Assembly (NCBI GenBank): GCA_024138025.1
Contig: JAMXBD010002246.1
Span: 62,001 to 126,000 of the forward strand
Reading direction: 5' to 3'
Length of the DNA: 64,000 bases
Origin: Combretum micranthum
Lineage: Eukaryota > Streptophyta > Magnoliopsida > Myrtales > Combretaceae
Shown here: piece after piece, positions 28,403 through 59,798 of the stretch
How the letters are laid out: each line of letters begins with the position of its first letter
How positions within the stretch are numbered: position 1 is the first letter of the stretch
Position numbers and translations under genes: made by a program
Notes under the pieces: model-generated
Told to the model about the DNA's origin: nothing
Database searches by the model: none
What the model saw: the letters and a program-made list of their open reading frames with translations, nothing else

Positions 28403-28482
28403 CTAATCACCCCATTCATCTAGAAATTCCTCAAAGTTAGTCCCATAACCTAACTGATCATAAAACTCATCTTCGTCAACAC
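28403..28482 (-). other. LTR acidic microexon, family A (Tekay 5' LTR)
   Basis: Frame read in phase G|GT after a former acceptor: GVDEDEFYDQLGYGTNF, then EEFLDEWGD and TAG (28,405-28,403). The intron end AG has become GG in this copy. Against the copy at 47,464-47,540 most changes fall at third codon positions, which points to past selection on the peptide. No start codon lies in the leader, so how it is translated is unknown. Confidence 0.6.
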
Positions 28483-28751
28483 CCGTAATAGAAAAACGTG
28501 AGCTAGAGGACCAGTATACAAGTAACACAAATAAATACAAAATAACATATACTCCTAATTTAATAAAAAAGGAAAAATAGCTTCATTTAATATTCACAAT
28601 CGTTTCTCATCTTTACTTAACTTAATCCAGAATATTACTTAGTTCAATCGATATGATAAATGTGAACTAATCGTATTACTTCTTTTTAAGAATAAGTGAA
28701 TGTTATACGGATATCATTACCCCTATCCACTATCCGCCAAGCTACTTACAA

Positions 28752-28773
28752 ATTGTCATTGCATCATGACAAT
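28752..28773 (-). other. GATGCA-loop hairpin (Tekay 5' LTR)
   Basis: Perfect 8-bp stem ATTGTCAT/ATGACAAT around the loop GATGCA (element strand), inside the LTR intron. Confidence 0.7.
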
Positions 28774-30922
28774 GGGGTGGCCTAAGCACCTAACTACTAT
28801 GTTAGCATCACCAATAGGGTTGCTGCTTCTCGGACCAAATTAAATCATATATGCACAGACAATTTAAACACTTTTAGTTCATCTTTGTTTATAGTTGATT
28901 TAGATATACTTATCATATCAACTAATAATCAAGTTACTGCGTACCTATATAAGTGGAGTTATCTAGCAAAGGATCTGTGTGCAAACACAATTGAGTGGGA
29001 ATATCTATTAAAAAGAAATCATTTCATATAAGGTTTAATTTAAACCATAAATGCATGTTAAGTCCTCAACAATTTTATCAAACTTATGTCGTATTTCATG
29101 TAATATATAACTTAGGATTTATACATATAACATATTCATTTACTTTATTTTATTTTATTCATTTATTTATTTTTAAACAGGGCAAAACAACGAAATAGGG
29201 AAGTTAGACCATTCACGCTTGTGATTCAAGCTGTGATTCCAAATCACGGGTGCAATCATGCACGTGACTCCAAATCATAGGGACAATCATGCCCATGATT
29301 GTCAAGTTTTCAAGATAGAATTAGTCGAGAATTGAATCATGCCCGTGATTCCTTAGAATTTGCCAACTCGAGCTGCCAAAGTATGAATCACACCCGTAAT
29401 AAGTTTGTGGTTTAACATTCAAGCCCTTTATAGTTTTTAAAATTGTTGCTCAATCTCTACCACAGGATCAATCACGCCTATGATTGGCTATCGCGACTGT
29501 GATCATGCCCAGGATTGTGAGATTCAAAAGTTTTCCAAACGACCCGAAGCTACCACACTCACAATTACGCCCACGATTCATGCTCCTGTACATTTCAAGT
29601 TTCCCTTGTTTTAAAACTTTAAACTTTAGCTATTTAAACTAACGCAAACAATTCTAATATAACATATAAACATAGTATTAAGTATCAAGGGATCATATTC
29701 ACTCATTATACACTCATTTACAAACAACCCAACCATTCTATCATTCACCATTTCATAACATCAGCAACTTCATTTCTTAACACTAAGATGACCTTCAAAC
29801 CTTACAAATTCATTTAATTATCAAAAAAATCACAACAAACTTTATTTCCTTATTCTACCAAGTTCTTGAGATTATTCAAGTCTAAGAACAACTTAGTTCA
29901 CTAACTCTACCATTAATTTTCTAAAACCTAATTGACATGAAAGTTGTCTTGCTTAAGATATACAATTAAACAAAAGCTCAAAAGGAGTAATAACACTTAC
30001 CTTAAATGACTTTAACTTGTAGATAGAAGATTGAAGGAATTCTTGATAAGTTTAGGGAGAAAACTTGATCATTGTGATAGAATATGCTAGCTTATGAAGG
30101 AGCAGTTGCTAAGGCCTGATTTTGGGGTTTGTTTTGGAAATGAAATTGTGAAAAAAATTACTTTGATAAAAATCTCATAATTTTCCCTTGACTTTTGCGA
30201 CATAAGAAGATTAGGGAAAAGGCTTTAGTTATAGGCTTATTTTGCATATGGACTTGGGTTTCATTATGCAAAAGTTAGGCTTAGGTTTTAGAAGAAAAAT
30301 TGTAGCAAAAGAGCTTGATTTGTTCTAGAAAGCAAAAAAAAAAATTAAAAATTAGAAAAATAAAAAAAAATGGGCTTCCTCAATAGACAACCAAATAATA
30401 CAAATGCTAAGTTATGCTAACACATTCAATTTTATTAACTAAATATTTACCATAATTTCATATATCAATCAATATACACACACATACACAAATGCAATTT
30501 AATTAAGTTTATTGGTTTAGAATATTTCATAAATGTAGAAGAAAATAATGTTATTATATTATTAATGTGCAATGTGATTCTTTTAGTACAATAGATCATA
30601 AAATATATGTAGATATGATAGTTATTCAATAATTCATGTATATTTTAATAATATTAATTGAAGAAAAATAGTTACTACGTCAAATTATATGATTAGTGTG
30701 CAATAAGATTTAAATATAATATGGATAATAATAATTATTACTTGTCGTATACTTTGAATATAAAAAGGTTATTAATAAGATTTGTTTAGTTATATAATTT
30801 TATGATAAAAAATTTAATATTATTATTATTGTGGAATGAAAAGAAACGTGTATATATATAGACATGCACAGAGCAGCTAGTATAATAAATGTATGCTGAA
30901 AAAATGAAATAGTACATTCATA

Positions 30923-30976
30923 GGATTTGAATCCATAACCTCATGGATTAAAAATAGATACTTAATCACTAAACCA
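30923..30976 (-). repeat. Possible SINE or tRNA-derived fragment
   Basis: Minus strand: TGGTTTAGTGATTAAG (A-box-like, 30,976-30,961) and GGATTCAAATCC (B-box-like, 30,934-30,923). This is the layout of plant tRNA-derived SINEs. No clear ends, tail or target duplication. Confidence 0.3.
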
Positions 30977-32231
30977 CACTTAATTCTATATTATAGTTTT
31001 CTCTTTATAATATATATATATATAATTTTTTTCCTTTTAAAAATTAATTTTTCCCAAGTCTAAGGGGCCGGAGCCCCGATTAGCCCCCTTAATTTTCCCC
31101 TGCGTCTACTTGAGTAGATATCAAAATAATACAAAATGCATAAAAATAAGATTAACCTAACATAGTGAATATTTATTTGATGCAAGCATGTTATCGCAAA
31201 ATATCTTTTAAAACTTAGGACAAATATTTCTATTTAGGTGTAATGTACTCGCAATGAGTACTATTTGTTGTATTAGCTATAAACTATTTTTCTATTAAAG
31301 AGATTATTTTTTTACTTTGAATATAATAGTTTTCTGTTTGACTAATCATTACCATGGCTCGATTTAGCTTCTATCACTCTTTATTAGGGACTATTAATGA
31401 AAGCTTTGAGTCGATATGATTACTCTTTATTGGTTTAGGATCATATGGATTATCCTTTTCATCCTGCTCATCTTCCATTTTAAGGCTTTGACGAAATGGT
31501 TTTAAATTTGTTTCATATTTTGGTCACAGTGTTCCTTTTTGTTTTGAGAAGATAAATTTTGTCTTATTGGTTGCAATAAGATGAAATTATGAAACTTCTG
31601 TTATATATATCCTCATTTTATCAACAGTGTATAGATTCAAATGTTCTTTCAAACTATTTGTTGATTCCAACTTATGAATCTTTTGGATGATTGAAAATTT
31701 TCCTTTTATTGGAGAAATCCAAAACCAAGTTCATGCTGGTTTGGATTCAAATTTTAACCATTCATGTGGTATTGCCTTTTCTATAAAAAGTGAGTAGGTT
31801 TTAGGTTTAGGCATCGAAAGTTTTAGGAAGAGAAAGGCTAATAATAATTAAGTGTTTAGTTTCTGCAAAATGTCTTTATAATAGCTATAGCAAACTGTCT
31901 CAACCATTATAACATACCTCTACTATATTAAATAAAGCTTTTGTAAGTTTTCCTTTTTCATGTCTGGCTAGTTATCTATTTAAGGTATAAAGGTAACTAT
32001 GTTCTAAAACCTTATTAAGTCTTTGTACCATGTAATAAGGTTTTATAGTATGAGTTAACAGATTAAGGCACCATGCTTGGTAGTAAAGCTCTTATTTGTT
32101 TAGAGAATAAAGCAAAAGGACCAACCTAAAAACCCTTTAATAAGGCTGTTGAAGGCAGAGGTTGCCGTGTTTTAGTCTTATGGATAATGATGTGGGCATG
32201 AGGTACATTTTCTAAAGAAAATATTGCTCCA

Positions 32232-32450
32232 TTGATTAACTTTTTACTTTATTTGTTTATCCCTATCACGAAGTTTTTTCCCGTTGCACAAAGATTCTTG
32301 TTTAGGCAAATGTTTGGAATATTCGCTGAGCACATCCAGTCACCAGATGATGTTGCTGTTGTTGTTGTTTCTTTTTCCTTCTCTAATTTTCAGTCGGATC
32401 AGTCCTTTAAATTCTTCTCTTCAGGAGTTGGTGTTGGCCATGTTGATTAG
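32232..32450 (+). pseudogene. Possible exon remnant of unknown gene
   Basis: A 72-residue frame with balanced composition (FGIFAEHIQSPDDVAVVV) in a less AT-extreme stretch. Inside it, a long pyrimidine tract ends TTCTCTAATTTTCAG at about 32,391, a textbook plant 3' splice site, and the following frame ends at TAG (32,448-32,450). The next bases, from 32,451, read on as VKKVLTRDARLVQDDF. I do not recognise the family; it may be chance or a decayed host gene exon. Confidence 0.25.
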
Positions 32451-33929
32451 GTGAAAAAAGTTTTGACCCGTGATGCTCGTTTGGTACAAGATGATTTTAT
32501 TAATCCAGGATCACGTTCATTGTTAGTCGTGAATGTATCTGTCACTTTACATATATATATATATATTTGTTATATGTATTTCTATTATATAGAATTCTAG
32601 CTTTGATCATTTCATTATAATATACCTTTATACAATATGCTTCACGCCAGTCCTTTCATTTTCGACGAATTCAAGCGACTATAAAATAATTTAATTAAAT
32701 GCTTTTTTTTTTTTTTTATAGGAGAACATGGATAAATCTAAATTTTTCTACCCACTTTTGTAATTAATAATCTTAAGTGTCAATTCACTACTGGTACAAT
32801 TTTTAAAGTCAAATTTATAATATCTAAACAAGGTAATTAATTAAAAAAAAAAGGTAATTTGGGTAATTGAATTAAAAGTCGATGAAATTTAGTAATTAAT
32901 TAAAAAATAAATTAAATTTACATATAAATTTGCACTTTTAAAAACTTTAAATAATTAATTATGAAAGTAGTTAAACTTCTTGTAAACGTTACATTGCCCA
33001 GGAACATTGTAAAAGTTAATCTCTACTACTTAAGTATTAATTTAGAACAAATTGGGCAACAAAGTACCATTTTTAGTCTGAAGAAAAGGAATGATACTGA
33101 TGATTTAGAACTCGTGTAGTAATAATATATTGAAACCTTATAACTAAAAACATGAACTAATTCCATGAGCTAAGTTATCGAATTTGAGGTAGACCTAATA
33201 ATTACAAAATAATTGAGATAGAATAACACTCTAATTAATTATAATATATATTATTTTTATTATGTTAAAATTCAATTAGGTTTCTTAGATGAATTGCAGT
33301 TAAATAAGTTGTAAGCTGATCATGTTAGGCTTACGTAGATAATACTAACTAGTGCTCTCATGAAATAATAATTTCGAATAATAGACAAGGAAGTGAGGAA
33401 CTCCATATAAACAACTCCTAGAATAAATAATGAGGAATCCTAGGATATCAAGTAAGAGAATGGACAATCTGGTGATAAACAGGAGAAAATCCCAAGGTCG
33501 AACTCCAAGTCCTTCCAAAACCGATCAACCGCTTTAGTCTTAAAGTCGGGTCAATTGCTGTCCTCCTTGAACCAGTTAACCCTTTTTTTTACTTAACTTA
33601 GTTGACCACCCTCAACCAATTAAGAGGATCCCTAGGTACCTCAAACGAGAAGCATTAAGCCATAGTAAATAATTAAATAATAAATAATAAATAATAAATA
33701 AAACAAAGGTCAATAATTTAATTGTTTAATCTTTACATAAGAATGAAAAGACGAGATAAAGACGATACATTTTAAAGATATGGTAAGTGACTTCTCCCTT
33801 ATAATTTTTCTTTTTTTGAGCGCATATTAACCTAAGTTTATAATTCGTCAACAAGGGTCTGACATGAAATTGTTATGTGTTGATAGTGCTTAAGCAAATG
33901 AAAAGAACATTTTATGAAAATTTTTTGGA

Positions 33930-34320
33930 ACCACTGTTAACCCAAACTTAAAAGATTTTGGACTCTTGTACTTATTGTACACTTTCAAAACTTTAGACTC
34001 TGGATTTTGCTCTGCACTTTCAAATTTTGAACTTCTAGAACTTGTACCACGATTTCAAAACTTTGGAGTCCAATTATTGGACTCATGAGAAATGTAAAAC
34101 GGATTCACACTTTAAAAACAAACTGAGAGATGTATTGAAAGTTCATATTTTCAAAAATTTGACTCATAAGGTGTACTATGATTCATATTTTCAAGAATTA
34201 GACTTATTGATGCATTAAAGGATTCACACTTTCAAAACTTAATCTCACAAGACATTAACCAGTAAAAACTTTAAAAACTCGGACTTCTAAGGTCTCATTC
34301 GAAATGGACCAAGTTTTATG
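33930..34320. repeat. Degenerate tandem repeat
   Basis: About seven loose copies of 'gattcacactttcaaaactt' plus 'gactcataagg' units at 50-65-bp intervals. Confidence 0.5.
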
Positions 34321-35013
34321 TGCTCAAATTAATATTACACTAAATTGAATTGTGTAATGTTGTTTGGTTTTTTGATTTATTAGATGTTAAGTATGTATAT
34401 GGTATGATATTTGTATCAATGTTATTCACTTAACTTTGATTACCAAATTTAATAATTTTTTTTAGACATATAGTAAGTGAAATAGCCATAAATTTTCCAA
34501 ATCATATTTTATAAATATGTTAATGAATTTATGCATGATTATGAAGCATGATGAATATAATTTATGCTAGTATATGTGTTTGTATTAGTGAATTTGAATA
34601 TTAGTATAACTGTCATTGATATTTATATGGTACTTGATTGATGTAACTGTTATGAAGTATGTAAAAAATTTGTTTAAGACAAGTTGATTATTCTTAATGT
34701 GTATTTTTAAACATAGCAGAAAATTTTGATTGAACCAAGCCCCAAAAACATTGATTTTAAGCCAAAAATCAAGCCCAAACACATGCCAATTTAAGCCCAT
34801 ACTTAAACAGCACTTAAAGTCAAGTTTTGGATAAGTATAAATCTTATTTTTTATCAAAAAGATACTTTCTAAGACAGACCAAAATTTTATACGAATTTCC
34901 TCTTTATTTCTTTCAAACTTTGCTCCTTTGTCTCTCCATGTGTTGCACCCCATCACCTTAGCTAGAACAAGACTTGGAGTCTAGTGTCTTCTAAGAAACT
35001 AAAGCTTCTTAAG

Positions 35014-36623
35014 GTAAGTTTATACTTGTTTAAAAACTTATTTTCTTGTTTAAATTTCTCCAGACATGTGAATTTCATGTTGCTATGAATATACATGTTA
35101 AAATGAGTATTGCTGATATACAAGTATTTGTGGTGTATTGAGTGCATATTTTGATGATATAGGAGTTGTCGGTATATGCTAAATAGGTAACAAGTAGTGT
35201 TGGAGTGCATGAAGTTAGAAATGAGTAAGGTTAGGATAATTTAGAGACGAGTAGATTGGCTTAAGGAGGGTTAGATGATGACTTATGTTTGAAATGGTAA
35301 ATATGAGCATTTAATGAAGTTAAAGTGTAGATTTTGTGTGTTAAAGAAGTTGGAATGCATATAGATGAAGGTTTGATATTTGGAATGTGTTGAGAGGAAG
35401 TTTGGAAATAAAAACTTAAGTAAAAGTTGTGTTTTAAGCAAGGGAAGTCTGCAATTTTTTGGAAAAAATATGTGTTGCAGTGTACGCCGTCGGCATAGGG
35501 GTCAACACTGCCGGTGTTGGGGGTATCCATGGGCGTGGACCATCCTTGTGGAACTCTCGAAAATTTTGGAAATTTGGAGTTGCAGTCTACACCGGCTCAA
35601 AGCCGTCAACATAGACCACAACGTGGCCAGCGTTTGTTAAATGCTACCAGCGATGGCAAGCATGGAGTTTTTAGCGCAAACTACACTGGACCAACGCCGC
35701 CGGTGTTGAAGGCCGGCATATCCTCTACAGTTTCCATTTTCAAAAACTCTCTCAAGAACTTTCCAAAGTGTGATATATAATCTTTTGAGTATTCGTTGAG
35801 CATGTATGATGTTATATGATATATAAATATCGTGTTATGACCTTGCATTGAATTTCTTTGAGTGTTTTGCATAAATTTAATTATGTTTATGTATGAATTT
35901 AAAATTAGAATGTTGATTTGAGATGATTCTTCTTGGAATAGTGTTAGATTCTCGCTTGGCTACCCCTATAAATTCCCGATTTGCTTCAGATACGCAGTAA
36001 CATGCTTGATTCCTTGCATAGGATAGATATACTATAAATTTACCCTAGTTTAAAAAAAAACTTAGGGATTGTTTGTATGATTGTCTTTTATGTCGTTGAA
36101 TCCGGTTTGGGGAGTGGCACCCTGCTCAGATTGGGGGCATGGTAGTCTAGGCGCTTAGACCACCTAGTCATGATGCAATGACTTTCGTAAGTGGTTCAGC
36201 GGGTAGTTGATAGAGTATTTGGTATCAGTATAACATTTTCTTATTCTTAAGGAGATATAATATGATTTAATTCAATTGTTTATGGGAACATTTGAATTAG
36301 GTGATATTATGAATTAAGTTAAGTTGTGAAACGGCTAAAAACCCTAAAGGAAGCTACTTAATTGTTATTGGATAGATTTATTTAGGAGATATAAGTATCC
36401 GAGCTACTTATATCAACCCCCTGAGTGTCGAGATCGTTATTCAGGTTCCCCAGATACCCCTGTTGTTTGGAGTTTGAATACTTCTGTGTTGTTTGATTAA
36501 CTAAAGATTATCTAATAACTTAATGATTGTGGCATTTGCATGTAGTCTAAGTTTGTGTGCCATTGAGCTTGTGTTTTACTTACTTGCGTACTAGGCATTT
36601 GGCTCATATTTTATTAATTTCAG
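35014..36623 (+). other. LTR leader intron, family A (solo LTR 34,478-37,087)
   Basis: AAG|GTAAGT donor and TTTATTAATTTCAG acceptor, 1,610 bp. It contains a GC-rich patch (35,480-35,720) with repeated 'gccggtgtt' and 'accggctcaaagccg' palindromes, and the GATGCA hairpin. Confidence 0.5.
36166..36183 (+). other. GATGCA-loop hairpin (solo LTR 34,478-37,087)
   Basis: AGTCAT/ATGACT stem with loop GATGCA. Outer bases ACCAC (36,159-36,164 region) and GTGGT about 10 nt downstream can pair to close it. Confidence 0.65.
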
Positions 36624-36706
36624 GTGATGATGACTCAGATGAGTTCTATGCGAGAATGAGATATGGTACGGACTTTGAGGACTTCCTAGATGACTTGGAG
36701 GATTAG
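36624..36706 (+). other. LTR acidic microexon, family A (solo LTR 34,478-37,087)
   Basis: After CAG at 36,621-36,623, phase G|GT: GDDDSDEFYARMRYGTDF, then an EDFLDDLED tail and TAG (36,704-36,706). Same length class and stop position as its sisters; nine or more acidic residues with interspersed F, Y and L. In the spliced leader a TAA would sit directly before the frame. Confidence 0.6.
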
Positions 36707-37092
36707 AAGTTGGCCATGGACCTTGATGGACCTTCTTTTTGTAATAGATTAGCTTAATATAGCTTGATTATATGTAGTAAATACTATAGTTTGTCTATCT
36801 TTTATGTTTTTTATATAAGACTTGTTATTAGCCTATGTTTGTAATGTATATACTTAACTATGTATGTTTTAAGTTTATATCTTTTATAAATGAGATGATA
36901 AGAATTGTATGTTTTCTTAAAAGGTTATTAAAGTCAATAGTTTTCAAATTTGTTATTTAGAAGATTTAGATAATAAATTATTCAAACACTTCTTGGAAGA
37001 TAATCTTACATATAATACCATAGATTATATGTGGTTGGGTATCCGTAATCACTTATTTTAACTATCAGGGTGAAGTCAGTCATTACAGTGAG

Positions 37093-39047
37093 AGAATGTA
37101 CAAAAAAAACATGAGAGAATAAGATTGAGAGAATAATAAAATGTCTTCTTTCAATACCAAGGCTCGTTTTTTAAAGAGAACAACGTTCAATTTGGAGTGG
37201 TGATGTCGTACACAAAAAGGAAGAGATGGACCGAGAGCCCCTCTAGTCTTTTTTACTTTAATCAATTAGCCCTTATGGAATAAATATTCAACGGCTTGGT
37301 AACTCTCATATTCAATGTTTGTTTAATTACTAGTGGAAATTTAGGGGTGAAGTTTCCCTGGGTGCAGCTTTAAGTTTAACGTATGACATGACGTGACATG
37401 TGTCCCCTAATTAACCATTACAAATAGCAATGACAGATTTGGCTATGAGTTTTTTTTTTTTTTTTAATAAAAGAAAAAAGTGATTTAATTGTAAAAGCAC
37501 TCAACTATAAGTCATTTTTCTTATATTTTTCTCAAATATGCCTCGAATGAAGTTTTTTAGGTGTCTTGTCGTATACTTTCAGTATATAATACCATATGTC
37601 AATAAAATGGGAAAAAAAAATACATATTGATGTATCAACAAGGTGTAAAGATTAAAAAGAAAAAATGAAAAAGAAAAGAAAACAAACATTAGGAAAATAA
37701 AATGCGTTTGAACCTAATAAAATCTCGATAAGATTTGGAAAGAAAGTGGTCGATAGCCGAGAATCCTTGGACTAGCTAAACCATGCTTGTTTTCGTTTTC
37801 TTCTTAAATTAGATATAAAAGCACCTCATATTGTCTCACGAGTGGAATTGAACATAACCACACGCTTAAATCTATTCTTATTTCTCATGGATGATGCCAA
37901 ATTCATGTTGCCACAATTAGGTAATAAATTAGAGGTGGGCAAATGGGTGAGGGCTTATGAGCAAACCCATTTAACCTACTTCAAAAACAGGTTAAAGCTA
38001 ATATTTTTCAGTCTATTTAAAAGTGAACCAATTTTATTCAGTACGATTAACCCATGTCCAAAGTGAGCTAGCCCAAATGGGTTGGCTCACTAACCCACTT
38101 ATATATATAAACAAAAAGTGAAAAAAAAACAATTAATCTAGTGTCGTTCTTGTGTCTTTTATATTTGAACTTAAACTTATGTATTAATTATAACAGAGAA
38201 TAATAAATTGATATATCTAAATCATAATATTTTTTAAGTATATCTTTATTACATCAAATACAATAAGATATCTAATAAAATTATTTTAAAATATTTTTTA
38301 AAAATGTATAAATAATTATAATAATAATGAAATTAATTATTTATATATGTGAAAACCCATAAAATTTAATTTTTTATTATATACATTTTATTCAATTAAT
38401 ATAAATGAGTTAAATGCATCAATTGAACCCATTTAATCCATAAAAATATACAAGTTGGTTAAATGAATCAAGAAGAGAGTCAATTCGTATAATCTACAGG
38501 TCAAAGTGGTTTGAGTTAGGGTCAATATCCTATTTTTAAAATGGATCAAATTTTTTAGCTCTTTTAACTTGTGGCTAAAATGAATCGAAATAGATTAGCT
38601 TGCTCAACCCGATTGCTCACTTGGAGGAAAAATCATAGTAATGCTTCGGATGAGCACCGGTTTCGACGGCTACTAAAAGACAACATCTAAAGGAAAAGAA
38701 ACATAGGACTTCTTAAATCTTTTGACTTTTCGGTAGCTTTCCAGCCGGCAGCTTTGAAATTTCTGATTTTTGCAGCGGCTTAAACCTAGCTTCCATGACT
38801 AAGCGAAAGGGAACGCTAACTCCCTATGATTGTGGTAATATGGATGTGGTTGCGTTAGTTACTTTGCAATAGCTTAAAGAGTTCACGAATTCATAAGTTT
38901 TATTTATTTGCTTTGAAACGGATATAAAAACCATTTAGGGTTAGACTGTTTGAGTTTAGGAATATGGAAAAATGTGATGAAAACTGGTCCGTGATATTTA
39001 TGTAATTTCAGCAGTTTTGAATTTTTAGACAAATTTAATCATTAAAG
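37093..39047. other. Mostly unassigned DNA
   Basis: Contains a candidate non-autonomous DNA element (37,930-38,640). 38,640-39,047 is slightly richer in GC but shows no gene or repeat that I recognise. Confidence 0.45.
37930..38640. mobile_element. Candidate hAT-like non-autonomous element
   Basis: Left end 'agaggtgggcaaatgggtga' and right end '...aacccgattgctcacttgga' are weak inverted repeats, and the ends are rich in 'aacccatttaa' type phrases as in plant hAT elements. No target duplication was found, so limits are uncertain. Confidence 0.35.
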
Positions 39048-41246
39048 TGTTGAGCCTGGATTTTTTCATTTTTTAGTTTAATTTTTTTTAATCCGATTCA
39101 TATTGAATTCTATCGACTAAGAATTAAAGAAAACTTCTAAAATTTAAAAATAAATTTGGAGTTGCCACCCAACTAAAGTTTCGAAAAAAATAAATTAGGA
39201 CTAATGGGAAAGTTAGTCTTAATTTTGCTACTGATTTGCAATAAAATTATTTTTCAAAATGAACGAGCGATACGAAGTTCGAGGGCTATCCTATTAAAAC
39301 CATTTGGTTATCACCTTAATTCTTAATTTTAAATTTTTTTTTTATGCTTGAAATAAATTTGCTAATGTTAAAATATTACAAACTATAGTATTTACAAAAT
39401 ATTATTATTATTAAAAAATTAGTATTTACATTAATATTTGCAAATAAATAAAATGACAATGATATTTAAGAAAAAATAAGAAAATATATTTTTTCAGTTT
39501 TTATGTCACCTCGAAAGTGCCTACGTACCAACTAATCGGGATCAGATAACACATAGTTCTTTTTTAGAAAAATTTAGTGTGTTGGTTTCTTTTAGATTTA
39601 TAAATTCTTTTCATTTTAAGTTCTTCAAATTTTGAAATTGAAAAAAAAAAAGAAATCAAAATTTAAGCATAAGCCTATAAGCCATCAAATTTATTTATAT
39701 TTATTATCACTTAAAAAAATTTTCCAAGTGAAAAAACACTTTATTTTATACAAATGTATATATAGGATGGCTCATGCATGCCTCATATTTCTACTTTTAT
39801 TATATATTTTTTTTGTTTTAACCTTTACTAACTATAATAATAATAATAAACAACTTACTTGGGCAGGTCCAACTAGAATGGTCGGTTCAGGTCGGACTAG
39901 GCATCGGGTCGAATCCTGAGGGCAATTGGCAGGTGGTCAACAGCATTTGAAATTGCCGTTCTAGGGGTTTTAAGCGGCCAAAGACTTGTTGGAATGACCA
40001 AACGAGAGGTAGCGAATGCTCCTGTGGCAATTACTTGGCTCAAAAAACACCCTAGTTAGTGGCTCCAAGCTTCAACGAGTGGCAGTCAATGGTAGTTTTG
40101 AGTCGAAGTGGTCGCCAGTCTTCTAAGGTCAAATTGAAACTCTCAATAGGTAGATTGAACTCACTTGAAACTTCCTATAACACCCAAATTGCTCGAGAAT
40201 TTCTTAAACATGTCAAATTCAAAAATTTTGAAAATGACGAAATAAAAACCTAGATCTTAGATCCGATTAGAGTGTGTTTTCTATGTTTTCTTGTTGATTT
40301 CTCTTGCTTGAATGAAGAAATTGACCTCTATTTATACTAGTTAGAGATCGAATTGGTAGGAAATTGGTCAATTTCAAGGATGAAGCACGAGCGATGTTGT
40401 GTTTTTCGAGCTTAATTAAACACATTTTGCATCTTTCAAGTGTAATTAACTTTGAAAATGTACAGAATGTGTTGAAATGAGTTTGACCCTGTGATCTTGG
40501 AAGCTTAAATTGTTGAAATGATTTGAATTTGGACTTTGCTTTGAGCACAAAATGTAAACCCGGTTTTCTTAATAACCCAGTAAACTCCGTAAATCGGAAA
40601 TCAAAACCCTAAATAGGATTAGTACAAGCAACCTAGGAACCCTAATTCCAGCTTTTCTTCGATTTTTATATAAAAGAACCTCTATAAGCTAAATTAATGT
40701 GGATTATCGTTTTATAGCATATTTCAAACCATAAAAAGTTTTGATTTTGAAAATTTTTCTATTTCGGGTTTTCCCGAGCTCCATTACGGAAAAACGAGCC
40801 CCGGAACTAGAAACTCAGAAAAATATTCCGGAATACTCGTTAGAACCAGAATTTTATAAGGATTTTAAAAATATATTTTTTTTTAATTTTTCAGGCTATA
40901 AAAATTACAGTTATATCCTTTTTTCCGTATTTTCGTTACTATTGGTAAAGTAGATGTCTTATCTACTATTTATTACTATTCATAAGTACAACCTACTACA
41001 CACATACCCATATCCTATTCTTACAACCTTTCAATCACTCAATTCATTTTCTTTTCCACGAAATTTTGTCTCTTAACAAATTATTACAATTAATACAATT
41101 TATTACACAAATTCAAATTTCAAATGAAATCAAATATATCTCCCTCTCACTCCCTTCATTGGCCGACGCATATCCCCATGTTTTTCCCCCCAATTTGTTT
41201 CATTTTAACTCCTTTTATTATACAAACAAACCCTAAATCCACCTAA

Positions 41247-47463: not shown

Positions 47464-47540
47464 GTATTGGAGACGAGTTTTATGATGATTTGGGCTATGG
47501 GTCCGATTTCGAGATATTTCTGGATGAGTGGGACGAATAG
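47464..47540 (+). other. LTR acidic microexon, family A (solo LTR 45,134-47,920)
   Basis: After TTTGCAG (ending 47,463), phase G|GT: GIGDEFYDDLGYGSDF, then an EIFLDEWDE tail and TAG (47,538-47,540). The frame extends upstream without stop to an ATG at 47,322, but that upstream part is not shared with the sister copies in the same frame. Confidence 0.65.
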
Positions 47541-48825: not shown

Positions 48826-49150
48826 TAAATAAGAACAAAAGAGAAATCTATGATAAAGAGTACAACATTTTTAACTTTCCCATTTTCAAGCATCTTTTCT
48901 TTTATAAGTCATGTCTTGTAATTCTGGTGCCTACCGCTTTAACCAAACTGGGTATATATAATTAGATTACTATTATTAAAATTTAGTAGCTAATCTAGAC
49001 AAAACAAACTTTAATTCTAGTGTTTAGCAAAAGAACCTTTATCTAAAAGTAAATACTCAATCCAATAAGGAAAAACACCCATTTAAACTTCACTAGACAT
49101 TAGCAGGCATATAATCCTTGCTACACATAGTGAAAGCATATGGTATCTAC

Positions 49151-49835
49151 TAGGAATGCAATCGGGACGAGTATACTAAAACCCGAACCCGATAGGATTC
49201 CCAAAACCTATCCCAAACCCTATAGGATTTTTGTCCATGAACCCAAAACCCACTAGACAAACCCTATAGGGTACCCGAACCCGAAACCCAATATAAAATT
49301 AGAATCATTATGCAATAAAATATTTAAAAACGATGTTTTTTTGTCATCTTTTTCTATTTCCGATCCGTTCCTACTTTACAGGCCAAGAAAAAAAAAAACT
49401 CTTATCATTACTTATGCAATCCTCTTTATAAAATCTCAACCATTTTCATGGAAAGAAAATCATTGAATGAAATAATGCGGCAAAGGGAGTGAGAGGCTTG
49501 AATTTTAGGAGAGTGAGCAAAGAACAAGACTAAAAGTGGAGACCATAGAGTATTAGTCTACTATCCTAGGGTTTTTTATTTTTTCTAAATGATTTAATAA
49601 AAATAATTACCTTTACAATTAATGAAGCACAACTAGTTAATTTCAGAGATGAAGGCTAAACATAATATACATTTATATATTTAAACGAGTTCAGGTTTCC
49701 CAACGGGTTTTATGCTCCTCCTAAAACCCTATAGGGTTTTATTATTGATCCCAAAACCCATCCCAAAGCCTATAGGGTATTTATCGGGTTGGGTGGGTCA
49801 GGTACCCTATAAAAACCCGCCCATTTACATCCTTA
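49151..49835. mobile_element. hAT-like MITE with 8-bp target duplication
   Basis: GTATCTAC flanks both sides (49,143-49,150; 49,836-49,843). Ends are imperfect inverted repeats: left TAGGAATGCAATCGGGACGA, right (reversed) TAAGGATGTAAATGGGCGGG. Subterminal arrays of 'aaccctatagggttt' and 'aacccgataggattcc' fill both flanks, as in plant hAT elements. The 685 bp have no coding capacity. Confidence 0.85.
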
Positions 49836-49843
49836 GTATCTAC

Positions 49844-51700
49844 TCTTTCTCTGGATTTTCTTCCTCTTTATTATAAGTCTTATTTCATTTGGTGCTTCAG
49901 CATTCATATTCTTTTGATTCATACATGCAATTTTTTTGTTTCATTTTTCAAAGTTCATGGATTGAACTTTTGTCTTTTCTCCCTTCTTGTTATAGTGAGT
50001 TCATTGAGTCGGCACATCCCAGATTCATCATCTAAGTGACCAGGTTTTAAAGGAACCCCTAAGGACTCTTCGTCACTCTAACATACAAGTTTGGATATTG
50101 TTAACTCAAGTACCAGAGTCATTGGAGTAAAGGCTATACTTGTTTTTTTTCTTTTCTTTTGAATGCTACAACAAAATTAAGACTTTTTTTTAATAAAGGA
50201 TCATTAAGTAAAGAGTTTCTTCTACTTTTTTCATAAGGTATTGAAATGTTCTCAAAACAACTCAACAGAGTATATACAAGCTAAATTTTTTCCGAAAAGT
50301 AGACCTATTTATTTTTCACTTTATGACTCAACTTACTCTCAAAATACAATTCTAAAGCTAAATACAATAATACAAGTAAATTTGTTCCTTAAAGATTTCA
50401 CTACTTAATTTCAACTAAGTATTTTAATTACAACAACAGTTGAGTAAGGCACCTAGCAAGTCAATTTCACATTTTTGCTCCTTAAAGATGCTATCAACAA
50501 TATTTATCACAATCTCTAGATTTCATTTCCAATTTTCAAAAAAAATTGGCATAAATTGTTTAGGATAAATAATTTAGGCCAAATAAGTTCAAAGTATAAG
50601 CCAACAATTCAAGTTCATATGTCATAAATATTCAATCAATTCAAAAAAAAATTCAGACATTAGCGATTCATATACTCCACTCTATTCATTATATCTTATT
50701 ATCCCTTCTCCCACACTTAAATTGAATAGTATCCTCACTATTCCTAATTTAGCTCAAAACAAGAAAGAAATAAGGATAAACGAGAAAATGAATGATGGTA
50801 CTTCCCCGATATCAATGTTCAGCATCAGAATTTGAATTTCAACCATGATATCTTTTAGAGGGTTATTTGTTTTAGCTTAGCCCCATGTTCAGATAATGCA
50901 ACTACTCAGCAAATACTTGATGTGATCTTTCGCCTCTTTTTCTTTGGCTAGAGATTTTTAGGTGGTATTCCTAGGTAAATAGTTCATGTTAATTACAAGG
51001 AATACTTAAATCAATGGTAATTCACACAACCAATTGCAAATGTGTTCTTACCTAATGTCTATATCTATCAATGAGTAGAATAGAACATTTTAAAACTAGG
51101 CATTTAACAAGTTAAAATTCCAACATAATTCCATTTCAAACAAGATCCACATCAACTAGGTTGTATGCATTACATCTTTATGTCTAAAACATGATATAAC
51201 ATGAAATTGTAGGACCAAAGCCATAAGCATGTGATTTATCCAGAACAGATCATGCCATTAGGCTTATACTTGCAAATCAGTTTTAACAATATTTCACCAT
51301 TCATGCAAATTCAAGTAAAATCCTAATTTCTAGCAAAATATGGATTTTTGATGAAATCAGGCACAATCTAATTGTAAATCCACATATATGCAAGTATAAG
51401 AATAACCCAACTCCATAAATCAGTAGATCAATATTATCAATTAACCTCAGAATATCAATCTTCTTAAGACAAAATTTATAGCCAAGAACAAGAAAACTTG
51501 AGAGAGAACACTTACTTGCAACAGTTGATTAAGATCCTTAGTCCTTGATGGAGTGAGAGTGAATGATTAAGTGAGAGAGTGAGTATGTTTTTGAGAGTAT
51601 AGGAGAAAGCTAGAGAGAGGAGGAACAGGGTATAGGGAAGAAATGATAGTGAAGGAATGAGAAAAAGAGAGAGAAAAAACAATTTTAATGTGTACGATAG
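49844..51700. other. AT-rich internal DNA without genes
   Basis: Belongs to the unresolved element. Contains the second purine tract (50,703-50,718), a CT/GA-rich stretch at 51,540-51,680 and a GCAAGTAAGTG donor-like site (minus) near 51,520. No open frame of note. Confidence 0.4.
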
Positions 51701-51749
51701 GACAAAGGCCAGCCTATTTCATCTATACACTGTCGGCCTACATAGTCGG

Positions 51750-51905
51750 CATAGAAATTCAAAATTTTTCCAGGCAAAAAGGCTAGTAGCCTTCAATCTT
51801 GTTAAGTCGGCCTTAAATATGCGGAGGCATAGAAATTCAAAATTTTTCCGAGGCAAAAAGGCTAGTAGCCTTCAATCTTGTTAAGTTGGGCTTGAATATG
51901 CCGAA
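51750..51905 (-). repeat. 78-bp tandem duplication with GGCC/CGGC motifs
   Basis: 'atagaaattcaaaatttttc' starts at 51,751 and 51,829; each unit ends in 'gttaagtcggcc' or 'gttaagttgggc'. Similar GC phrases occur at 53,040-53,200 and 56,905-56,980. Confidence 0.75.
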
Positions 51906-54333
51906 GCCTAAATCATAGGACTTATGCCGACTTAAAGCCAGCAGTCTATTTTGTCCAGTAGTTGGCCTTCATTATTCTATCTCTCATTGAGTCATGACAG
52001 TGTTTCAGCGCCAAAAACTGATCATGCTTTTTCTATATGTGCTTTTTAATCTCTTTTTAAATTCCTATAAATGAGCATATATTTACAAACTAGTGTATCA
52101 GGTGCGTGTACAATAATAAAATTTCGGTGAATACTGAGTCGTGTCCACAGGGAGTGAAGACTAGCTCTCAACTATATTAATCCTTATTATAGATAGGCAA
52201 ATAAAAAAAGATTATATTTTTGGAATTTTAGATAGAACTAATATACAAAGAATTTTAGATTTCCAACACCTTAAATTGAATTAAGTTAAGAGCCAACAGA
52301 TCAGAAAGACATCGAATGTATGATATGACCAGAATATACTTGCAAATCCAAATTGCTAATGAGTTTAGTATCTTCAAGTATTTAAGCACCAGGTAAAAAC
52401 TCATTTTCCCAAAGAAAGTGATTATCTGAATTAACCAATCAATATTCCTTATCCCTAGGAAAGTGATCAATTGACTAATCTGTATAAATTACCAAACCCA
52501 AATCTAATTCAAATCCATTTCCCTATGAGAATTATAATCCAAATTAGCTAATCATAGAATCGATTAGAAAGGAATTTCCCAATTGCAATCCTAATCTATC
52601 ATGCATTCCAAAATCAATTCAAAAACATGATCAATGAATCATCATTAACAACATGAACTTAAGCAACAATTCAATCAACAGGCGAAAAACATCAACTGGA
52701 CAATTCAAATCAGTAACTCAAAACCCTAAATAAGCACAAAAAGAGCAAGTATTGAACACCATTCATAAAATGAATATAAGAAAAAAACAAAATCACATTG
52801 TTAAGAAAATCTTGTTCTTTAATGCAAGTAAAAATGATGTTTCCCACTTAATCCCAGTATAGTATCCTCAATCAATATAAAAATAAAAAGCTTTCTACTA
52901 GTCTAACCCCTAATCTATATCTAGGAGCAAAGGAAATAGGCTCTCAATTCATTCTAGGGTTCTTCTCTTTCATCCACAGGATCCACAAAAGAAAAATATA
53001 TATGAAAAAACACATGCAGGATATAGGATGGCATTTTTCATCTGTACATCGGTAGCTTACATGCTGGCCTTGAATTTTTATTTAATTTCCAAAGCAAGGA
53101 GTCCATCAGTGTTGGAGGCAATGTAGGAGTACGCTGACTCAAGGCTAATGGTATAGAATCCAATTTCGTCGGTGTTCTTGTTATTTTAAGGCTAGCGGTA
53201 TTGTCACGCCCCAACGGGTACCCTAAACGTGACAGCCCACCATACACAATATTAAAACTTAAGAATGACTACTTTAGTCACTCGAAAGCTTCCATATCAG
53301 TACAAGGCATACATTCACATAAAAGGGCGACCGGTGGAGTAATGCATTTTAAGATATTGGCAGCGGAACATGCAAAATAACACTTAATATATTTCATTGA
53401 AATATAAACTCCTACAACTTCTAAGGGGCATTCTCCTTATAATAACCATAGCAACATAGTCTTAATATGAAGATTAACTAAAACTAGAAGATTTTAAAGG
53501 AAATCTAGTCTAAGACTTTAAAACAAAGTTCCTCCAAAAGCTTCCCAAAATAAAGATTCTACCCAGATGATCAAGATGGTCTCAGGTGCAAAATAACGAT
53601 CCTGCAATATCAAAAATCTATAGGGGCATAAGTAGAACTAGCTTAGTGAGATATTCCTTACGCAAAAGTACTCATAACAGACATTCAACCAAGTTCATTA
53701 AACAAGCATATGAAATGCAACAACCATATGATCAAACAGTGCATACGATTATCCGGTTTCGTATGTGTGATGGATTTACCCCTCCATCGGTAGTTAGGGA
53801 ATGATTTAAACTGGGTCCCAAACAACCTTCTTAAAAGTTTGCGTGCATCTTGGGGTTCCAACGAACCGTATTATTAGTCCCCGGGCTTTCCTTACCCAAA
53901 GCAATCAATCTAGCTCGACTACAACTTGAGGTCGTATTCTCCGAACGTCTTAAATCATCAAGATGTAGCTAAGCAGCTTACCTTTCCGGTCCCACGCTGA
54001 GGAGTAATAGCAAAATTTCGAAATGATATTCTATGTGATATACATGAGCAATTTATTTATGAGATATTCAATCCGACATTAATTTATTTAAAGCGATCAA
54101 GCAATAATTGCACGTATAGCAATACATACATAGAAGCAATTATGATAATCAACAAATCGTGCTCCACTATACTTACTATTCTTTGATCACACATAGCAAT
54201 TCACATACACAATTCCCATAATAACCCGCATGCATATCAATTTTATCTTTTCCTAACATCTAGTGCTCTATTCTACAAGCACATGTGCGAATACATAAAA
54301 TGTAAAGGAAACTCACTCATCCGTAGCGATCTT

Positions 54334-54383
54334 CTATGAGTCGAAGTAATCCTCGAGGAAAAGAAGATCTTGATCCTCGATAC
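54334..54383 (-). other. LTR acidic microexon, family B (solo LTR 53,202-56,900)
   Basis: Phase G|GT: GIEDQDLLFLEDYFDS then TAG (54,336-54,334). Same layout as 42,930-42,976. Confidence 0.55.
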
Positions 54384-56011
54384 CTAAATAAAAGAAATAC
54401 CCAAAATGAGTATTTCATCCAAGATCTATTCAAATTCTTTAATTCTAACTTATTAAATTCGTCAAAATTAGCATGAATGGGAATTACAACTTAAAATGGT
54501 CATAACTTGCTCATTTTAACTCGGAATTTTGTATATTATATACTGATTTCTACCTATTTGAAAATATCTATCCATTTCTAAGGTTATTTTTATCAAAAGA
54601 AGTCATTTGGGTCTCAGAATAGTGACGTACATAATTGTTACGAAAATTCAACATTTCAAAACTCAAGTCTTCAAACTTTTCTCTATCCAAAAATTCTTGC
54701 ACAAAAATATAGTTATTTGTATGGTTAAAAAAATCCTTTGAATATATATATATATATAGAGAGAGAGAGACTCAAATTACATACATGAATTTAGTGGTGT
54801 TGTCTCAATAATGATTTTTGTAAAGCAATGTGTGAGATTATGCTAAGACTTGAAAAGAAATTTCTTTTTAGTTTTGTTGGGAAATTTTCCTAAATTATCA
54901 TAAGTGAGCATCCTCTTCTTTCAACTCCATTTCTTAGTTATTGAGAATAATTAAATTTCAAAAAGTAATTTTAATCTTTTAAGATTCCTACAAGTTTATT
55001 TCTAGTGGTTAGAAAATGTAGTTTTCTAAATATTCCTTGGTAGTGACTAAAGTTTTTAAAGTTCACTTGTTCTTAGTTTTTCCTAAATTTTGGTCCATTT
55101 TAAAATAATAGGGTTCTTCTAATTTTAGTTCCTAAGTAAGATTTATCTTTAAAAAGATTTATTCTTAGGTGATTTTGGAAAACTTATCTAAACCTTAATA
55201 TGTTGATGAAAACTTTACATATGAGTTTAAGAAAACTTTTGTTAAACAAAGAATTAAGTTTAAAGAAACTTTCTTATTTCATTGGTTTGAAAAGAGTGTT
55301 TTGTGATAACTTTATTTTATGTATTCATTGATAAAATCCCATATAGTATTATTACTAAAACTTGAGTTAAACTTATCTAACTTTAGAAAATATTTGTTAA
55401 GATAAAACTTTAATTCTTTATGGAAAAATCATTTCTTATGTGACAAAATTTATTTTTAAAGAGAGTTCTTATTTTTACTTAAGAAAACTCCTTTTTATTA
55501 TGGTTGAGACAATATCAACATGTTCATGCATGAATGAGATTATGTTGATATGAAAAATATAACAATATCACATAATAAGAAAATATATGTATAATAATAA
55601 ATAAGAGCACAATAATAAAGTCAAGTATTGGGAACCTTAATTTCATCAAGGTATCATGGGGCTAAGAATAGACTAGTTCCAAAAGGAAAAGAAAAGAAAA
55701 AAAATTGTTTTGACTTGATAAGGACAAATCTAATACTAAAAAGACTAGTCTTAATAATAGCATGAAATAAATGAATTGCAAAGCATAAAAATAAATAAAT
55801 AAAAGTGAGCTTATATGCTCTAAAGAAGTATATATACATAATATACATAATACTATATAGAAGTTAGATTAGAGCAAATAATAATAATAACATAATGGAA
55901 AATAGGAACATGAACATATTGTTGCTTCTTTAACTCTCATGAGTCTAAGAAACATACACTAAGCTCATGCTAAGTTGTATGAACATAATGAGTATGTGTA
56001 AGAAACTTTAC
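54384..56011 (-). other. LTR leader intron, family B (solo LTR 53,202-56,900)
   Basis: CCTTAG|GTAAAG donor at 56,011 and TTTCTTTTATTTAG acceptor ending at 54,384; 1,628 bp. It contains a TA/GA microsatellite at 54,748-54,770. Confidence 0.5.
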
Positions 56012-56187
56012 CTAAGGTTATGTGTTTGTTGAAGAGTAAAAGAATGGGTTATAATATTATATAGAAAATGGTTTTATAGAGAGAAGAGAGAACTTGGGAG
56101 AGAATTTGAGAGAGAGTGTTTGTGGAGAAATTTTGGTAGAGTTTTAGTAAGAAATGAGTTGTGTGAAAGAACGAAGAAGAAAGGGGG

Positions 56188-56195
56188 TATTTATA
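56188..56195 (-). promoter_or_regulatory. TATA box of the solo LTR 53,202-56,900
   Basis: Minus-strand CTATAAATACCCCC, about 180 bp before the splice donor. The leader between them lacks ATG. Confidence 0.6.
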
Positions 56196-58453
56196 GAGTT
56201 TTGAAGTGGAAATTAGATGTAATTAAATAAATTGAAAAAGAAAATAAAATGAGAGTGAAGGAGAGGGATAGTGGACGGCAACATGGGGAATAGGGAGAGA
56301 AATTGATTAAATTTGTTGTTTTGTAATAAAAAGAAGTAATATGTAAAGTGTGATGTGATTAAAGTTGTATAGGAAGGTAAATTATGAGGTATAGGTATGG
56401 TAGTATGTAAGAATAGAGTGTAAGAAAAAGTAGAGATAGTGAAATAATAATGAATAGAAGAAATAGTGCTATAAATAGTAAACTAGACAATTAAAATTTC
56501 TGATAGTAAAGCAAATACGCGTAAACGGCCTATATCTGATATTTTTAGTTACCAAAAATTCTAAAACTGATATTTTTGAAATCTTTATATTTTTACGAGT
56601 CTAATGGTGTTTTCGGAATATTTTTACTATCCAGTGCACCAGGGCATGATTTTTGAAAACTGATTTCGTTCAGATCCGAAAAGCACTAGAAAATTGCAAA
56701 AATGATATTTTTAAGCTTTCCTATATTACTACGAATCATTTTCCACAATTATCTTAATTTTGTTGTCTACGGTCTAAGAACATGGGATTGCCGGATCTAA
56801 ATTCACTAAACTAATCATAGAACTATGTACTTTAAGGTTCTGGTTTGACTTCCGGTTCTTAGGGTTTACTTATATTTACCGAAAAATCTAGGGGCTTACA
56901 AGTATAGCTTGTTGTTGAAGGTCGGCTGTGTTGATCTTGTAATGGCCTGTGTACATTATACGCTGACGGCCTTTATTCTCCATTTGCCAACCTTGAATGT
57001 TACATGTCTTCAATTTTTCACAAAACTCCTCTAAATTGCTTGTATTTGCATTATAAGTCCTTAAAGACATGAAATATCATAATAAGCATACTTAAGTACC
57101 ATTTCCTTAAGATTTCTATAAAATCAATAATAATTAAGCATGATTCGTATGATAAAAAGTGAGTATCATATGCCTTTATCAAGGGTACGGTGTAATGACT
57201 TAGTATTCAATAATGGATTAACAATTTTTATATGAAAACAAATTCCTGTACTTGGTTGTGTCTGAACACTGGTCTTTTGCTAGATAATTTCATTTATCTA
57301 TGTCACAACCCAAGGGATACCCTAAACGTAGCAGTTCACCGTGCACATTATTAAATCCCAGGAAAAATTTCCTTAGTTACGCGAAGGCTCCATATCATGC
57401 ACAAGGCATATAACACATCAGAGAGAATGTATCGAAGTTGTGAAATTTACTTGGATAACATTTAACTAACAAGGCAAGAGAAATACTTAACATGAAACAT
57501 AAACATGGTCGATTACAATTCTTAGGGGCATACCCCCACTAATGTCTACAAGTCTACACAAATACACTTTCTATTAATCTCCAAAATATGAACATAACAT
57601 ATATTGCTCATAAAGAAATTTCAAGAAAGTAAATTCCTTCTATGCTCCTACTTTTTCCACAAAAGCTCAATGATCCACCAATGTTTTTTCTTAATGTCTT
57701 GTCCTTGATTTGAGTCTCGCGCATACCTGCTTCAACAAAATCAATGGAGGTATAAGCTTACAACGTGCTTAGTGAGATATTTCCCCATCATTCACACTGA
57801 CAATCATAGACAAACAAGTCAGTTAGTCAAGCATATACTATGCTTACGCAATAATCACATGAAGAACACATATATGTATAGTTATCTGGAATTTATACAT
57901 AGAATGGATTTACGCCCTCCATATCAAGGGCTAAGGAATTGTTGATGAAGATCCTCTTGATCTTCCATTACTAATCTTCAGGCACTCGCCCAAAGCGTTC
58001 GGTTGGCACGGCTCCAAATCTGGAGTTACATTCCCCAAGCGATGTAGATTCCCTAGAAAGGAGCATGGCCCCGTATCCCAACACGCTAGCGGCCCATCCA
58101 ACTCTATGTGTAAGAGTAGCAGCCTTCCGAAATGTGACTCGATGGATGTTATGCGTGACCATTTTCTTGTTAATGTCATTCCATATTATGATTCATTAAG
58201 GGTGATCAATCAATTTAAACACATATGGCAATTAAGCATACAAATGAATAAACATAGTTAAACAAACATTCTAGCGTTACGATATGCTTAATGTCAACTT
58301 AATCAAACAAGCAAGAAACACACTTTACCCTTAATAGTCCCCCATGCATATTCATTTTTATATTTTCTTAATCATGCTAGTGCAACTACTTACATGCACA
58401 AACAAAATAACTAATTTAGAAGGAAAAACTCACTCGTTCATATCGCAATCTTC

Positions 58454-58500
58454 TTAGTTGTGATAATCCTCAGAAAGGAGAGTTTCGTATTCCTCGTTAC
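58454..58500 (-). other. LTR acidic microexon, family B (LTR from 57,301)
   Basis: After TTTCTTTTCTCTAG, phase G|GT: GNEEYETLLSEDYHN then TAA (58,456-58,454). The donor is at 63,334 (CCTTAG|GTTAAAA), beyond the inserted LTR. Confidence 0.5.
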
Positions 58501-59727
58501 CTAGAGAAAAGAAATACTCGAAATGAGTATTTTATAGAAGTTTTACTTAAACTTCCTAATTCTATCTTGTTATTTTCATCAAAATTCAGATGAAGGGAAA
58601 TTTCAACTTAAAATAGCCATAACTTGTTCATTTCAACTCAGAATTTCACATATTAGATATTGTATTCTACCTACTTGAAACGATCTATCTATTTCTAAGT
58701 TATTTTTGACATTTAAAGCCATTTGGGTTTCAAAATGGGTCGATATAGATTTGACCCGAAGGTTCCAACCCTTAAATTGCAATTTTTCCTAAGTTTTTCT
58801 TCACTTTGACACTTTATAGCAAATATATAAATATTTATACTTTTGAAAATCATTTAATATTAACAATAACGCATATTATGCATGATCTTAGTCATATTGT
58901 CTTGAAAATAAAATTTCTAAATAATATTTATGAAAAATAGAGTTTTGTGAAATGTCATTTTTCAACTTGTGATTAAATTTGCCATTTTGCAATCATGTGG
59001 CTTAACAACAAAAATCATAGTTCAATACATATATTTAGGAATCTCAAAGGTTTTATATTTGTTCCAAGATTCTTATTTAACAATTTATTTTATAAAACAT
59101 GGTTTTACTTATTTGTGACCTAAAGTTCTAAGTGTATTTCCTTTTAAAAATTTCCTAAGTCTGATTCTTAAACAAAATTTTAATTCTTAAATTTTGTAAA
59201 TAAGAAACTTAATTAAAGAAAAACATGGTTTTATATTAATTTAAAATTCATGAATATTTTATTTTCATATTAAACTTCTTTTTAATCATTATAAGTTTTA
59301 TTACCTCTAAAATGTTTTAAGTTTTAGCATGAGGAAAATTAAATGTGTAAGGACCCGGATTCACTACTAATTAAAACAGGTGCAAATCCAATTCCTCAGC
59401 CACATATAGGATTACATGTAAAGCTATTTGTAAAGAGAAAGTTTGTAGAATTGTTTGCCCAAACCTGTAGTAAAACCATTCCAATAGCATTTCGCTAAGG
59501 AAACCATAATATATATTACATTACAAAACCTTATTTTCCTTTTAAACATAGGTCTTAAGGCTATAATACATATATTTACATACTTAATATTACAAAACAT
59601 TGGTTTGAGATCAAACCTATATCAAAATACATGTATGATTATCAAAATATCTACCCATATATTACATTGTTCCAAAACATATTTCTTCTAATCTATTACA
59701 ATAGATTTCCTTATAAGTTCGGGGTTC

Positions 59728-59798
59728 CTAGTCAAAAAAGTCTTCAAAATCAGTTCCATAACCCATTTGAGTATAAAACTCATCATCATCATCAACAC
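59728..59798 (-). other. LTR acidic microexon, family A (solo LTR 59,346-62,068)
   Basis: Phase G|GT: GVDDDDEFYTQMGYGTDF, then EDFFD and TAG. The acceptor is intact. The DEFY and GYGTDF blocks match all sister copies although the flanking DNA is strongly diverged. Confidence 0.65.

Follow-up and report, generated by a model that had tools for sequence, protein, structure and literature searches.

The question raised by this stretch of 64,000 nucleotides of Combretum micranthum DNA (hereafter the window, C2246:62001-126000 of an assembly of 1,864,781,351 bases in 5,442 contigs, referred to below as our own genome) is why several of its retrotransposon long terminal repeats (LTRs) share a short acidic reading frame that begins exactly at a 3' splice acceptor. 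Plant retrotransposon LTRs are generally regarded as noncoding. Coding constraint is nevertheless found here inside the LTR, and it starts at the acceptor. We consider it likely that a 3'-terminal coding exon under selection is present in these LTRs and would end a spliced mRNA, and thus a second product other than plain Gag-Pol; as far as can be judged from sequence, a tail-bearing spliced protein is probably made by these elements.

Four copies of the frame, each terminated by a stop codon, are intact in the window, in agreement with the initial annotation. Copy B (28403..28482, minus strand; VDEDEFYDQLGYGTNFEEFLDEWGD plus stop) lies in the 5' LTR of a retrotransposon designated element 1, and the others are copy C (36624..36706, plus strand; DDDSDEFYARMRYGTDFEDFLDDLED plus stop), copy D (47464..47540, plus strand; IGDEFYDDLGYGSDFEIFLDEWDE plus stop) and copy E (59728..59798, minus strand; VDDDDEFYTQMGYGTDFEDFFD plus stop), the last of which has a shorter tail. 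A fifth, copy A (12880..12956, minus strand), in the 3' LTR of element 1, is decayed, with AA at the acceptor, a frameshift and a lost stop. All five lie within LTRs of Ty3/gypsy-type elements. The candidate terminal coding exon is called exon 3 below. The lengths of the four intact frames differ by multiples of 3, and none of them has an in-frame ATG before the motif. In copy B the 25 residues of the tail include 10 acidic, 6 aromatic and 0 basic ones. A pyrimidine-rich stretch followed by AG (GG at 28,482 in copy B) precedes the frame in all four intact copies, as had been described; the acceptor phase x|GT, claimed for every copy, stands for the four intact ones only. The acceptor region of copy B (28483..28545, minus strand) contains a conserved stretch (TTGTATACTGGTCCTCTAGCTCAC), a branch-point-like CTCAC and a pyrimidine tract, with GG replacing AG. 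Our recount also reproduced the reported comparison of copy D with copy B, in which 11 of 17 differences fall at third positions. It should be noted that the whole LTR, not the frame alone, is common to the copies; the codon pattern still stands out within the LTR.

To examine this pattern, the LTRs of copies B, C, D and E were aligned and both strands were scanned in windows of 25 codons, with column permutations as the reference and at least 3 scorable pairs required for each window (4,669 windows; 2,338 forward and 2,331 reverse). The exon 3 frame ranked first of the 4,669, with a mean z of 3.18 and values of 2.9 to 3.4 for each of the six pairs, and the top window started 4 nt before exon 3. 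The runner-up among separate forward windows scored 2.46, on just three pairs, and no reverse window exceeded 1.86.

The comparison of dN/dS (the ratio of nonsynonymous to synonymous rates) between the frame and the flanking LTR, proposed earlier as a check, was carried out on 43 copies. These comprised the 40 top-ranking matches to copy B (A and B themselves among them; 40 scored out of 1,598 candidates of a first look) together with C, D and E, and therefore lean towards the family of copy B. The tree was built from the flanks, CpG-aware neutral rates were also taken from the flanks, and changes were counted by parsimony. On internal branches, 58 synonymous and 52 nonsynonymous changes were found against 35.1 and 109.1 expected (omega 0.29, p = 1.4e-10; the p-values of this test assume independent changes among related copies and serve as a guide only). 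Terminal branches, which also record neutral decay since insertion, had 72 synonymous and 130 nonsynonymous changes (omega 0.51), and the two classes of branches differed (Fisher p = 0.004). A simpler count made without a mutation model gave dN/dS of 0.18 for internal and 0.36 for terminal branches. As controls, exon 3 was read in its two wrong frames and the flanking 87 nt in every frame, and omega ranged from 0.77 to 1.78; the wrong frames of exon 3, which in one case contain ATGs, were unconstrained at 0.83 to 1.7, and the frame continued upstream of the acceptor gave 1.68 on internal and 1.19 on terminal branches. When C>T and G>A changes were dropped, 29 synonymous and 28 nonsynonymous internal changes remained against 13.1 and 66.9 expected, and since omega was still low (0.19), CpG or methylation decay does not explain the third-position bias. 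Thus, conservation at the protein level from the acceptor onwards, first seen in the four window copies, extends as purifying selection to the larger set.

Sliding scans over the rest of the LTR detected no window comparable to exon 3. The best windows outside the exon had uncorrected p-values of 0.005 (1,071 windows, 31 rows), 0.0012 in a second scan of 30 rows (5 of 35 rows were excluded; copy B lacks 140 nt there) and 0.0003 in the 5' part of the LTR (1,165 windows, 52 rows, row D excluded). The best reverse-strand window (p = 0.0013) overlaps exon 3 and is far weaker than the exon 3 frame.

These data bear directly on the first alternative, in which the third-position pattern would be due to chance, decay or constraint on DNA or RNA, with no translation. 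Nearby noncoding sequence is indeed also well conserved, and short stretches can mislead, as can p-values that ignore relatedness. Such an origin seems improbable to us, considering that the signal is restricted to one frame and one strand, starts at the acceptor and survives the removal of C>T and G>A changes, that the wrong frames are null, and that the intact window copies differ in length as a reading frame would.

The frame is present in many copies. In our own genome, 150 places matching the peptide were scored out of 15,024 loose first-look candidates, all with E <= 8.3e-4. A stop was present in 22 of these 150, a figure that gives no rate because the ranking favours intact copies. The frame was also recovered from a protein database: a profile of the four copies had a single match, 1 of 12 candidates, to a predicted 49-residue protein (P0121; E = 2.2e-12) from a 2,041-base contig, which shares the tail and an upstream GPLAH stretch and may come from the same species. 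A protein search with the copy D frame alone gave no match, and neither Pfam nor PDB had a match for the tail.

A second alternative is capture of the exon from a host gene, followed by its use in host transcripts as a gene-trap exon, with no role for the element. A trap of this kind could work, given the acceptor and the poly(A)-like context, and the scored places number at least 150. However, if scattered host genes were the users, no constraint along the lineage of LTR families would result, the tail has no match in Pfam or PDB, and the conserved LTR stretch was found by eye directly upstream of the frame in all 4 places read among the 150, namely those with the longest open frames. We therefore give this explanation little weight and return to an exon that serves the element itself.

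The context of the acceptor was then compared across the 43 aligned copies. The stretch GTACTGGGCC(T/C)(T/C)TGGCTCA occurs upstream of the acceptor in 36 of them (at most 4 substitutions), and yUnAy is found at -30 to -10 in 39, although this motif is loose and its chance frequency was not controlled. The upstream stretch is conserved as DNA, because its reading frame in B and E differs from that in C, D and P0121. If the RNA were left unspliced and read upstream in frame, a stop would be met before any ATG in 38 of the 43 copies (most often at the tenth codon, in 14 copies) and an ATG first in 5; an upstream exon is therefore needed. Farther upstream, 100-230 nt from the exon, lies a conserved block of palindromes (GATATAGGTA..TACCTATATC and others; window 36340-36600, plus strand), which is deleted in copy B and in L010 and L011 (L-numbered rows other than L001 are further copies fetched from our own genome). 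A role of this block as RNA structure was considered and rejected, with RNAalifold z-scores of -0.45 to 0.45 there; among seven 130-column windows, only that at -520 to -390 stood out (z -2.43), and the LTR of copy C had no match in Rfam.

The layout that we propose for exon 3 would thus be a branch point, a pyrimidine tract, AG, a run of about 22 to 26 codons with many acidic and aromatic residues, and a stop. Downstream of the stop lies a TTGTAA-type sequence, which fits plant poly(A) signals. In a complete element, a spliced mRNA would terminate in the exon 3 copy of the 3' LTR, its upstream coding exon being internal to the element, and the 5' LTR copy and those of solo LTRs would be passengers. 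RNA splicing, the use of the 3' LTR copy and the partner exon are what we infer from sequence.

As to the partner, the best candidate within the element is a donor in gag, AAG|GTGAGA at 27502..27503 (minus strand), which is in phase 1 of the gag frame and is the only donor above 8 bits in the gag-protease part of element 1 (the matrix frequencies being approximate). G|GT followed by A or G is kept there in 18 of 26 copies. Splicing at this G|GT would join the tail to the N-terminal part of Gag, which is rich in proline and glutamine. We propose it tentatively, as a possible partner about which we remain doubtful. A candidate internal exon (exon 2; 28945..29004, minus strand, 60 nt, and 51 nt at 60431-60481) lies between the leader donor described below and exon 3. 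It has a good acceptor and a good donor, is in phase with exon 3 and is open in that phase in many, not all, copies, and its length is divisible by 3 in 26 of 35 copies.

Two other donors were considered. The first is the leader donor, TTTAAG|GTAAGT (30001..30002, minus strand, last exon base 30001), located within the LTR about 1.5 kb upstream of exon 3, with counterparts at 35013 (plus strand) and 61424 (minus strand) and decayed ones at about 14582 (minus strand) and about 45683 (plus strand). It forms the basis of a third alternative, in which the frame would be part of a 5' leader, spliced from exon 1 to exon 3, and would act as an upstream open reading frame for Gag. Of 53 aligned copies, 29 have AG|GT at the corresponding place in the LTR (L023 and L051 being one locus), so splicing of the leader to the acceptor is likely in itself. 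As a coding arrangement, though, we find it very improbable: the initial annotation had seen that in three copies leader splicing would place TAA just before the frame, and this holds widely, with TAA as the codon before the phase-1 G in 23 of the 29 copies with AG|GT; in addition, the window copies offer no ATG of their own in frame, and the two remaining frames of the exon are free of constraint. For the same reason the leader was rejected as an in-frame partner of exon 3.

Other features of the leader region were noted. The interval between the primer-binding site (PBS) and gag (window 28037-27820, minus strand) contains donor-like G|GTGA/GTAA and an acceptor-like TTTATGTAAAAG, the latter followed by ATGG in 4 of 7 rows when read by eye; this suggests a leader intron that ends at the start of gag. 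An ATG overlapping the PBS opens a short frame in some copies. A leader open reading frame overlapping the PBS was rejected as the first exon, being closed in L037 and L078.

The second of these donors, AAG|GTAAGT at 15130..15131 (minus strand), lies at the end of pol and was examined in 32 rows (window 15130, L023, L039 and L049-L077, in which L023 and L051 are again one locus). AG|GTAAGT is present in 23 of the 32, about 40 nt before the 3' LTR. The integrase alignment omitted L064 and L076, which contain nested LTRs; in the last 800 nt of pol, this donor was the most often kept (22 of 29, the next best 12 of 29). A Gln codon and the codon after it could be matched in 17 of the 32 rows: 16 of them have a stop and 1, the window copy, has TAT. 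Relative to the donor, 9 of these stops (8 TGA, 1 TAA) are in phase 2 and 7 (all TAA) in phase 0, and in nearly all cases they finish 5 to 6 nt before it. Exon 3 needs phase 1; phases 2 and 0, and stops at the junction, led us to reject an in-frame fusion of the pol end with exon 3. That the tail is an alternative integrase C-terminus, with pol spliced from this donor to the LTR exon, is hence hardly credible, for although the donor is so often kept and an acidic tail behind a chromodomain-type integrase would make sense, the phase is wrong, TAA or TGA is the codon before the phase-1 G in 24 of the 25 copies with G|GT, and a tail pattern matched none of the best 120 of 6,825 pol relatives. More probably, the pol-end donor is the start of an intron in the 3' untranslated region, which would otherwise be very long. 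A further donor in integrase, at 15492, was discarded as a partner since only 2 of 29 copies have it. The leader and pol-end donors both tend to T(A/G)AG|GTAAGT, with a stop directly before the phase-1 G. Both are thus excluded as in-frame partners, by wrong phase or by a stop at the junction.

Several results weigh against a selected terminal exon joined to a partner within the element, and they should be considered together. First, the acceptor itself is imperfect: among the 43 copies the dinucleotide is AG in 24, AA in 12, GG in 3 and something else in 4. The set is also decayed. The frame has kept its length in 30 of the 43 and is open from acceptor to stop in 22; its length is frame-breaking in 13 and it is not open to the stop in 21. 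The decayed state of many copies fits old insertions. Second, one control was slightly off (upstream frame 0, terminal branches, p = 0.035). Third, 8 of the 26 copies no longer have the gag donor (3 read GGA and 5 are altered in another way), and 5 of the 18 kept donors, including that of the window copy, have a stop before the phase-1 G. These stops are TAA or TAG where other copies have CAA or CAG, that is, C>T changes (window TAA versus CAA in L079 and L080). Few donors were tested, so the phase match in gag is weak evidence. Fourth, selection on exon 2 was faint (omega 0.67, p = 0.05 for 28 sequences; p = 0.15 for 23 sequences; 8 of 38 fetched copies had been dropped before alignment and then 7 of 35 rows, or 12 for the smaller set), and it was kept as a possible exon and rejected as a demonstrated coding one. 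Finally, a genome search for exon 1-exon 3 and exon 2-exon 3 junctions with up to 3 mismatches returned 0 matches. Reverse transcription of spliced RNA would yield copies without the LTR intron; the absence of such genomic copies fits unspliced RNA as the template, and most copies are old. For the BARE element, unspliced RNA has been reported as template (PMC3735527).

What such a tail would do can be approached from its composition. Acidic-aromatic peptides of this kind occur in activation domains and in histone-binding tails, and the idea that the tail is an activation domain comes from composition only. We may imagine, as a speculation that we think unlikely to be right in full, a small spliced regulatory protein made of the gag N-terminal exon and the 3' LTR exon, resembling retroviral transactivators, whose acidic-aromatic tail would act in the nucleus on element transcription or chromatin, and whose terminal exon would be spread by solo LTRs.

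Element 1 itself is a Ty3/gypsy retrotransposon on the minus strand, presumably of the Tekay/Del clade. It has two LTRs, a 5' LTR at 28048..30529 (about 2.5 kb, TG...CATGACA) and a 3' LTR at 12550..15090, the exact 3' end of which is approximate; their identity is about 80 to 85%. A PBS-like stretch (TGGTATTAGGGC; 28037-28026, minus strand) stands 10 nt past the end of the 5' LTR, and its recognition rests on this position, given that such patterns occur in the window at chance level (4 found, 2.67 expected); a PBS-like site follows the LTR in 6 of 38 fetched copies. On the same strand, Pfam domains occur in the order RVP_2, RVT_1, RT_RNaseH and SH3_Tf2-1. The gag and protease part occupies 26127..27784, with the protease (RVP_2) at 26127-26558; gag is decayed and was named by position and zinc-knuckle-like cysteines, the piece tested having no Pfam match. 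Reverse transcriptase (RVT_1) is at 17637-17404, RNase H (RT_RNaseH) at 17062-16775 and the C-terminal part of integrase (SH3_Tf2-1), which belongs to pol, at 15094..15840. The integrase core gave no Pfam match in the frame tested, and a chromodomain gave none in the window open reading frame at E <= 0.01; PF00385 is present in some of the best relatives.

Element 1 is interrupted by a nested copia-type element with 1.2-kb LTRs (17883-25946, plus strand), inserted between protease and reverse transcriptase. Elsewhere in the window, a direct repeat pair (1-3236 and 8562-11924, plus strand; 93% identity over 3.4 kb), with tandem arrays of 33-, 35-, 28- and 40-nt periods in and between the repeats, is probably another LTR element. 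Nesting was also seen in other copies: the pol regions of the B-type elements L076 and L064 host C-like and D-like LTRs, respectively, that have no visible internal part. A contig of a viral collection (L001, IMGVR_UViG_3300037193_003197) carries a short Ty3/gypsy integrase fragment at the edge of phage-like frames and is probably a chimeric assembly.

The LTRs that carry the frame are quite different from one another. The LTRs that hold copies C, D and E show pairwise identities of 61 to 65% in the main alignments, and LTRs of this type end in (C/T)TTACA rather than the CATGACA of B, most clearly, by eye, in the C-like LTR inside the pol of L076. At least two LTR families are therefore represented, and probably more than two. 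Retention of a coding exon by the LTRs of several families would mean that plant Ty3/gypsy elements have an accessory product that is missed when annotation is limited to the sequence between the LTRs. Many solo LTRs would then come equipped with an acceptor, the acidic tail and its stop, probably together with a poly(A) site, and host genes could draw new protein ends from them, which can be tested. Were the regulatory-protein reading true, solo LTRs would spread a ready-made terminal exon for host genes.

In the literature covered, in which subscription journals were mostly not included, we did not find a coding terminal exon inside a plant LTR described. Genes reaching into the 3' LTR exist elsewhere: foamy virus tas, sag of mouse mammary tumour virus and lentiviral nef do so, several of them via splicing, and their products are regulatory. 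Host and family are unrelated to ours, and here only about 25 codons without a start codon are involved. By gag-pol layout and integrase, the closest elements are presumably the Tekay/Del chromoviruses (clade list in PMC6317226), and the available part of that article mentions no LTR coding exon for the clade. The LTR retrotransposon Cer1 of Caenorhabditis elegans produces RNA with a donor and an acceptor and an extra protein, CERV (PMC10309623); the comparison is by description, and the part available contains nothing on an LTR-encoded terminal exon. The nearest parallels in plants are BARE1 (Ty1/copia; PMC3735527) and Ogre (Ty3/gypsy; PMC6317226), which likewise obtain more than one product per element by splicing. 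In both of them, however, the introns lie within gag-pol, whereas exon 3 described here is terminal and is located inside the LTR.

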